Assembly (NCBI GenBank): GCA_021731085.1
Contig: JAKFYB010000008.1
Span: 1-64,000, forward strand
Length of the DNA: 64,000 nt
Direction: 5' to 3'
Source of the DNA: Dehalococcoidia bacterium
GTDB lineage: Bacteria; Chloroflexota; Dehalococcoidia; DSTF01; JACRBR01
The notes under the pieces were generated by a model, which worked only from the letters and a program-made list of their open reading frames with translations, was not told where the DNA came from and did no database searches. Below, piece by piece: positions 8,159-28,239 of this stretch. Positions within the stretch are counted from its first letter, which is position 1; each line of letters starts with the position of its first letter. The translations under genes and the position numbers were made by a program.

Positions 8159-8326
8159 AGTTGTGCAGCATGACACAAGCTCGCGCGTAGCTTAGGTGAG
8201 AGAGGAGCGGGTGTTCCTCGTCCCGAGGGCACAGCTCATTCATGCATAGGCGCATTGGCCCTGCCTGCTCGCGCCCTAGCGTTGGTAGCCTGTGTGTGCA
8301 TCACATCACAATCGGAGACTGCCGAC

Positions 8327-9070
8327 ATGACCACCGACATCGAACAGCGCGCCGAGACCACCACGTACGGCGACTATGCCGACCTGCTGAAGCCTGACGC
8401 CAAATGGGTCATCGGCGGCTTCCCTGGATGGGAGTTCCGCGAGCCAAACGCGATCATCCTCGTCCAGAACGGCACCCTGCGCGTCGCGGTCAATCCGCTG
8501 ACGCGCGGGCACGACTACGTCCAATTCTTCGACAACGCGCATCACATGTACTTCTCGCGCGAGACGTTCACTGTGCCAGAGGGCGGGCAGCTCTCGTTCG
8601 AGCTGGACCTGCGCTGCGAGAAGGTGAACGGCGTCGCCAACGACTTCTACGACGGCTACGTCTCGTTCAACCTGCTCGACCTGACGCAGGGCCTCGCGAT
8701 CGACTTCTTCCAGTCGAACGAGTGCTACGCGACGGTGTACGCGCGCCTGCCGTTCCCCGGCGCCGCTGTGCCGGCTGGCGACGGCCCGAAGTACTTCGGG
8801 CTCTTCAACGAGAAGCCGCTGCCGAAGGGCGAGAAGGTCACGCACCGCTACAAGATCACGTACGACCAGGCCGCGGCGGAACTGCTCTTCTGTGTAGAAG
8901 GCGAACTCGTCAACCGCGAGGTCAACGTGCCACGGATGGAGTCGATGATCGCCGCGCTGGGCATCATGACGGAGAAGGACATCCAGAACGGCAAGAGCGT
9001 AAGCTGCCACGGCCAGGGCGTCATCGCCGAATACGGCCCTCTAACCATCACGCGCACGCCCGCGGCTTAA
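8327..9070 (+). CDS. Hypothetical protein, probable beta-sandwich
   Basis: 247 residues from MTTDIEQRAETTTYGDYAD. I prefer this ATG because CGGAGACT precedes it by about 8 nt; the track's longer form begins at a TTG or GTG with no site. The body is rich in aromatic beta-strands (HHMYFSRETFTVPEGGQLSFELDLRCEK) and looks like a lectin- or jelly-roll-like sandwich. There is no signal peptide. I do not recognise a named family with certainty and assign no function. Confidence 0.75.
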   Translation: MTTDIEQRAETTTYGDYADLLKPDAKWVIGGFPGWEFREPNAIILVQNGTLRVAVNPLTRGHDYVQFFDNAHHMYFSRETFTVPEGGQLSFELDLRCEKVNGVANDFYDGYVSFNLLDLTQGLAIDFFQSNECYATVYARLPFPGAAVPAGDGPKYFGLFNEKPLPKGEKVTHRYKITYDQAAAELLFCVEGELVNREVNVPRMESMIAALGIMTEKDIQNGKSVSCHGQGVIAEYGPLTITRTPAA

Positions 9071-9134
9071 CCAGTCCGCCGATCTTCAAGCGCCGCGTGG
9101 CACTCTCCCGAAACAGATCAGCGCATGCGATGCA

Positions 9135-9150
9135 TGTTTCACGTGAAACA
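9135..9150. other. parS: parS-like ParB-binding site
   Basis: TGTTTCACGTGAAACA is a perfect 16-bp palindrome, extended to 18 bp by flanking A/T. It matches the bacterial chromosomal centromere site parS, which differs at one position in the Bacillus consensus (TGTTCCACGTGAAACA). It lies in the intergenic gap upstream of a hydrolase promoter. I found no second copy, and no parA/parB, in the window. Confidence 0.8.
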
Positions 9151-9191
9151 TCACCATTCGCGTTTCGCGCGAGCTCGGTCCATGTGACTCG

Positions 9192-27754: not shown

Positions 27755-28239
27755 GAACCCTCCAGTGGCGCCTATCGTCGCACAGCAACCTCCACATTGC
27801 AACAGTGGCGGGCCGAATCGAGGTGGACAACCATAGCCCAGTCCGTAGGCCAAGGGGTGTCCGAACCGGTGCTCGAACTCCAACCCCCAGAATGGCACTC
27901 GCCAGATTCACATTCGCAGCCGACGCGTCCATCATCGCCGACGTCGTTGTCATCGAACTCGGTGAAAGTCGTGGAAATAGGGCTCGAGCAGGTTGGCGGC
28001 GAGCGATGGCTGTTGGTCGATGGACGCGGGGAGTATTTCTACGTTGAATCACGATCCTCTGCGCGGCCAGCAACCATGGCAGCCGCGCTATCGCATTGAG
28101 CAATTGCGCTGATCGACGAAGATGCTCGGGTTTGCTCACCATGACCCGGACGGAGACAGCCGGCGCTATCGCCAGCGATGTCACGGCTGCACGGCGACGG
28201 GCATGCCACAGCACGCCCAACATCCAACACCCGGCGGAC
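27755..28239. other. Gene-free stretch (~480 bp)
   Basis: This lies between the divergent-facing end of the SDR gene and the NHL gene start. ORFs here in the track lack ribosome sites and family features, and I see no hairpin with a T-run. It presumably holds the promoter for the NHL array. Confidence 0.5.

Follow-up and report, generated by a model that had tools for sequence, protein, structure and literature searches.

The window, a stretch of 64,000 nucleotides from a Chloroflexota-type MAG (G000; 3.58 Mb, 52 contigs, 96.6% complete), carries a 16-bp palindrome, TGTTTCACGTGAAACA, between two genes that both lie on the forward strand (Table 1). As the earlier note had claimed, the palindrome matches the parS consensus perfectly and its position is noncoding, within a 186-bp gap between 9070 and 9257. 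It was the sole match in the window when up to 3 mismatches were allowed, and shuffled versions of the window gave an expectation of 0.09 matches at 3 mismatches. The upstream ORF had no NCBIfam match, and the repeat element that contains the palindrome reads into the 3' end of this gene. A search of the window against Rfam matched no family, and the window holds only two tRNAs.

Table 1. Features of the parS locus and its neighbours (window coordinates)
Feature	Position	Strand	Evidence or remark
Upstream neighbour, 271-aa ORF	8255..9070	+	Orthologues in family; context, outside the site
Whole composite repeat, about 80 bp	9079..9157	-	R2 model match, 74.2 bits; BLAST with window
Outer right-arm module GAGTGCCACGCGGCGCTTGAAGATC	9081..9105	-	Like a -35-type module found elsewhere without parS
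Inner right-arm motif TCGCATGCGC	9121..9130	-	Family consensus TCGCATGCGA, itself palindromic
Extended core (A)TGGTGA-parS-T	9134..9157	-	40-site profile; left edge sharp at 9157
parS, perfect 16-bp palindrome TGTTTCACGTGAAACA	9135..9150	.	Sequence match, 0 mismatches to consensus
Downstream neighbour, alpha/beta-fold hydrolase, 253 aa	9257..10018	+	Context, outside the site

The whole genome contains 29 perfect parS words and 12 more with 1-2 mismatches, while the reversed pattern used as a control gave none; from base composition, about 1e-4 perfect copies would be expected in the entire genome. The earlier note had named occurrence at chance frequency across the chromosome as a refutation; this applies by half, since occurrence is indeed broad, but at a frequency far above chance. 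The 29 perfect copies group into 16 clusters distributed over 14 contigs, a spread that fits uniform scatter (mean expectation 12.5 contigs, with the sizes of some contigs interpolated). The smallest arc able to hold all of them spans 1.28 Mb, or 36% of the genome; this is a lower bound obtained by chaining the site-bearing contigs as compactly as possible, it presumes one chromosome and correct binning, and a MAG provides no true distances from oriC. Although 85% of the DNA is coding, 37 of 40 sites were intergenic, an enrichment. Two of the 40 were placed within genes (C9:936 and C45:2243) by a gene call from a simple codon model, which missed a perfect parS in frame inside a gene at C24:36170. 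This last copy (L028:16170) lies in an NYN-type coding sequence (NGDVSRETSVG), beside a gene for an Mrp/NBP35-like ATPase.

The genome encodes a chromosomal-type ParB, for which the earlier note had proposed to search (C29:2821-3765; TIGR00180, 177.6 bits, cut-off 58). The protein aligns with Spo0J of B. subtilis (6sdk) and ParB of Caulobacter (6t1f) through the GERR (CTP-binding) box and the helix-turn-helix. SMC is encoded on C12 (883 bits) and DnaA on C42. For parA, the assembly yielded only distant matches of 26-31 bits, one of them Mrp/NBP35-like, and its contigs break where relatives carry the gene. The gene order in the congener G001 is jag, parS, kinase, parS-parA, parB. The counterpart region of G000 is split: jag/yidC and four parS stand at the end of C18, which breaks at the place expected for parA, and parB is on C29. 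Consequently, parA of this genome may lie in the gap between C18 and C29. The canonical origin-side parS cluster is that of C18, adjoining jag/yidC and having the same extended core as the window site. Tandem 187-bp units with one parS each lie beside jag (C18:436-933, L024), and a 17-bp sequence repeated perfectly in tandem (x6.9) directly adjoins these parS units (C18:1154-1271, L024).

These distributions bear on a rival reading of the locus, in which all sites belong to an ordinary origin-centred domain and the window lies near oriC, the latter being what the earlier note had suggested. The vast majority of parS sites are indeed found in the 20% of the chromosome around oriC (PMC7022226), and the 8 sites of B. 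subtilis, already termed scattered, extend over about 0.75 Mb (PMC8357415). However, confinement to about 20%, which parS sets usually but not strictly show, does not hold for the whole set with its minimal arc of 36%; the number of contigs hit agrees with uniform scatter, and the origin genes reside on contigs other than that of the window. GC skew, proposed as a check, was noisy and changed sign along contigs, locating no origin, and the orientation of the elements agreed with local skew at about 10 of 16 loci, which is not significant. An origin-proximal explanation of the set is improbable. Since the copies fall in 16 clusters on 14 contigs, a single copy is a poor guide to how far away oriC is, and the window parS does not support placing the window near the origin. 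The case also cautions against assigning a contig to the vicinity of oriC by a lone parS.

When 40 sites were oriented and stacked, they had (A)TGGTGA-parS-T in common, and on the left side conservation ended sharply at position -8/-7. The hexamer TGGTGA had a mean pairwise identity of 0.80 over the 40 sites compared to 0.34 just outside; it was not used in picking the sites but was used in orienting them. A few sites are symmetric (TGGTGA-parS-TCACCA). On the other side, ten copies, that of the window included, continue into a right arm some 60 bp long (TGCATCGCATGCGAG...GAGTGCCA...GCTTGGAGATC), which together with the core makes up an intergenic repeat of about 80 bp; the same composite architecture occurs at C5, C9 (3 copies), C20, C23, C24, C7 and C30. 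Some parS sites are without the arm. Tandem units of about 180 bp occur within the clusters at C18 and C30, and the neighbourhoods of parS have further intergenic repeat modules in common. The intergenic repeat GTCATTCTGAGCAAAGCGAAGAATCTGGCC and other repeats were seen around many parS clusters (L024, L029, L036).

The repeat exists in several copies whose shared borders reach beyond parS (about 80 bp, with the sharp left edge), as expected of a mobile repeat. The sites could be passengers, captured and spread by a dispersing REP/MITE-like intergenic repeat, with the scattered copies having no cellular function. The composite copies at ten loci, the modules and tandem units common to site neighbourhoods, and the intergenic location of most sites in a largely coding genome all fit this explanation. 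The alignment of the repeat revealed no terminal inverted repeats, and its DNA did not fold consistently into any structure (z between -2.1 and +0.2). Evidence to the contrary comes from the parS words themselves and from comparing the core with its arms. In 1.57 Mb of the genome, parS-like words with 0, 1, 2 and 3 mismatches numbered 29, 7, 4 and 2, against 0, 0, 0 and 0 for the reversed control, and from 4 mismatches on they fell to chance (28 against 24), so that there are hardly any decayed copies of parS. Among 10 full-length copies, pairwise identity was 99% in parS, whereas the two arm segments reached 45% and 61%; choosing sites by the parS word inflates the first value, a bias that does not touch the sudden drop of the mismatch spectrum to chance. 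The core looks to be under constraint while the arms decay, a pattern unlike that of a functionless passenger, and retention of parS beside decayed arms indicates, as judged from these comparisons, selection for ParB binding. Furthermore, there are the sites without the arm, the copy inside the NYN gene, and the 22 scattered sites of another genome of the phylum (G179, see below) that have no common repeat. We therefore regard a pure passenger origin as unlikely.

The outer arm resembles a promoter module of the -35 type. This module, AGTGCCATCCGGCGCTTGGAGATC, also occurs without parS in the window (27874-27925, minus strand) and at C8:146775, C4:93892, C4:120696, C4:189074, C34:28295, C7:38803, C5:7461 and C22:53799, usually followed by a TANNNT-like -10 element 17-18 bp after TTGGAG; we read it as a promoter that recurs in the genome, possibly with an operator lying over its -35. 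The resemblance, together with intergenic position, might suggest that the palindrome is the operator of a transcription factor recognising a CACGTG core, which would control a regulon unrelated to ParB. However, copies of the outer module that bear parS have no conserved -10, and the congener has the exact parS consensus too, at its jag/parA locus. The elements face gene 3' ends about as often as gene starts, the window element being among the former, and this mixed orientation makes a regulatory role unlikely. Overall, the operator explanation is very improbable.

Comparison with relatives describes how the set arose. G000 has the most perfect parS sites among 400 genomes of the phylum; its congener G001 (72% complete) has 2, G004 has 10, and other family members have 1-3. 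On these counts the expansion is lineage-specific. Relatives have orthologues of the two genes flanking the window site, but these were not seen side by side, so that synteny yielded no clean empty site; the stretches examined beside them contained no parS-like word (best 5-7 mismatches). The window copy is consequently most simply explained as a gain in this lineage. Large sets elsewhere in the phylum are of two types. In G380 they are tight, with 23 of 27 sites within 32 kb; in G179 the 22 sites are dispersed over many contigs, and their flanks have only A-parS-T in common. G179 (f70, g98) belongs to another Chloroflexota family, in which most sampled genomes of the genus (congeners G335, G361, G126, G156 and G233) have 5-22 perfect sites. 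The ten perfect sites of G004 are distributed over nine contigs and nine loci (L048-L056) and have a conserved left flank (AGAAC, A or T, AA) that differs from that of the window's genome. Given that the flanks in G179 and G004 both differ from those of G000, scattered parS sets probably arose more than once. The extended motif TGGTGATGTTTCACGTGAAACAT gave only single or paired matches in unrelated genomes across GTDB r220, a search that may omit the window's own genome, and revealed no other genome with an extended set. Among the papers searched, none combined parS with Chloroflexi.

Taken together, the window palindrome is very probably a genuine ParB docking site. Our main reading, to which we assign a probability of about 0.7, is that it represents a functional chromosomal parS and belongs to a set of sites, found genome-wide, whose expansion in this lineage took place largely as part of short intergenic repeats. 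ParB dimers recognise the parS palindrome, bind CTP and close into clamps that slide into adjoining DNA and recruit ParA and SMC. By extension, each scattered cluster would load ParB-CTP clamps locally, and these would slide outward from each site and recruit SMC. The origin-side cluster on C18 would carry out partition proper, and the scattered clusters may provide extra points of SMC loading or of condensation and nucleoid organisation, or alternatively serve as Noc-like DNA markers along the chromosome.

This last alternative merits separate consideration. Noc of Firmicutes is a dedicated paralogue within the ParB family, with a consensus of its own and sites over much of the chromosome. 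In G000, ParB or an undetected paralogue could likewise use the scattered sites for nucleoid occlusion; as far as ParB binding is concerned, this would be one particular form of the main reading. The scatter recalls that of Noc sites, and the best NCBIfam match of the ParB is the Noc model (216 bits, under its cut-off of 315). However, the ParB of G001 scores alike against this model with only two perfect sites in its genome, and the sites of G000 are parS rather than the Noc consensus. A second chromosomal ParB or Noc was not found in the genome; the three remaining and weaker ParB-domain matches are fused to a DNA methylase. A Noc-like role is accordingly quite unlikely. The three fusion genes (L017, L018 and L019, on C15, C43 and C20) are closely similar, and a phage-terminase-like gene lies beside that on C20 (L019).

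A bolder version of the main reading is polycentric partition, in which ParB clamps would be loaded at some 16 points spread across at least a third of the chromosome. A repeat family would have seeded these points with a composite ParB site whose extra conserved half, TGGTGA, may bind a second factor or set the direction of the clamp. We offer this version tentatively and consider it rather less probable than not. Counting against the main reading itself, parS sites far from oriC can be harmful in P. aeruginosa (PMC5098823). The departure from rule gives the locus its significance: parS is normally a mark of the origin, and scattered perfect sites are therefore unusual. With 29 conserved scattered copies in G000, 1-3 in close relatives and scattered sets in separate Chloroflexota lineages, these genomes constitute a natural experiment on two questions: what keeps centromeres confined to the origin, and how SMC deals with numerous loading points.

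What is new here, as far as sequence comparison goes, is a scattered and partly repeat-borne variant of the known parS system. It has in common with Spo0J-family ParABS systems the identical 16-bp consensus, the presence of ParB and SMC, and an origin-type cluster beside jag/yidC. In contrast to their origin-proximal clusters, the 29 perfect sites fall into 16 clusters that span 36% or more of the chromosome, the core is asymmetric (TGGTGA-parS-T), and many copies reside in an 80-bp repeat. The scattered parS of B. subtilis are similarly several and widely spaced on one chromosome, but in G000 the sites are more numerous and occupy a wider arc, with tandem-repeat clusters and a common extended flank. 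Firmicutes Noc shares a ParB-family protein and widespread sites, but it has another consensus, and no paralogue was found here. The repeat resembles REP/MITE elements in being short, dispersed, intergenic and mosaic; it differs from them in that no terminal inverted repeats were seen and the parS core appears constrained. Finally, the 22 parS of Myxococcus xanthus, a high-copy set near the origin (PMC3899335), and the set of G380 are similar in copy number, but these are tight, whereas that of G000 is scattered.
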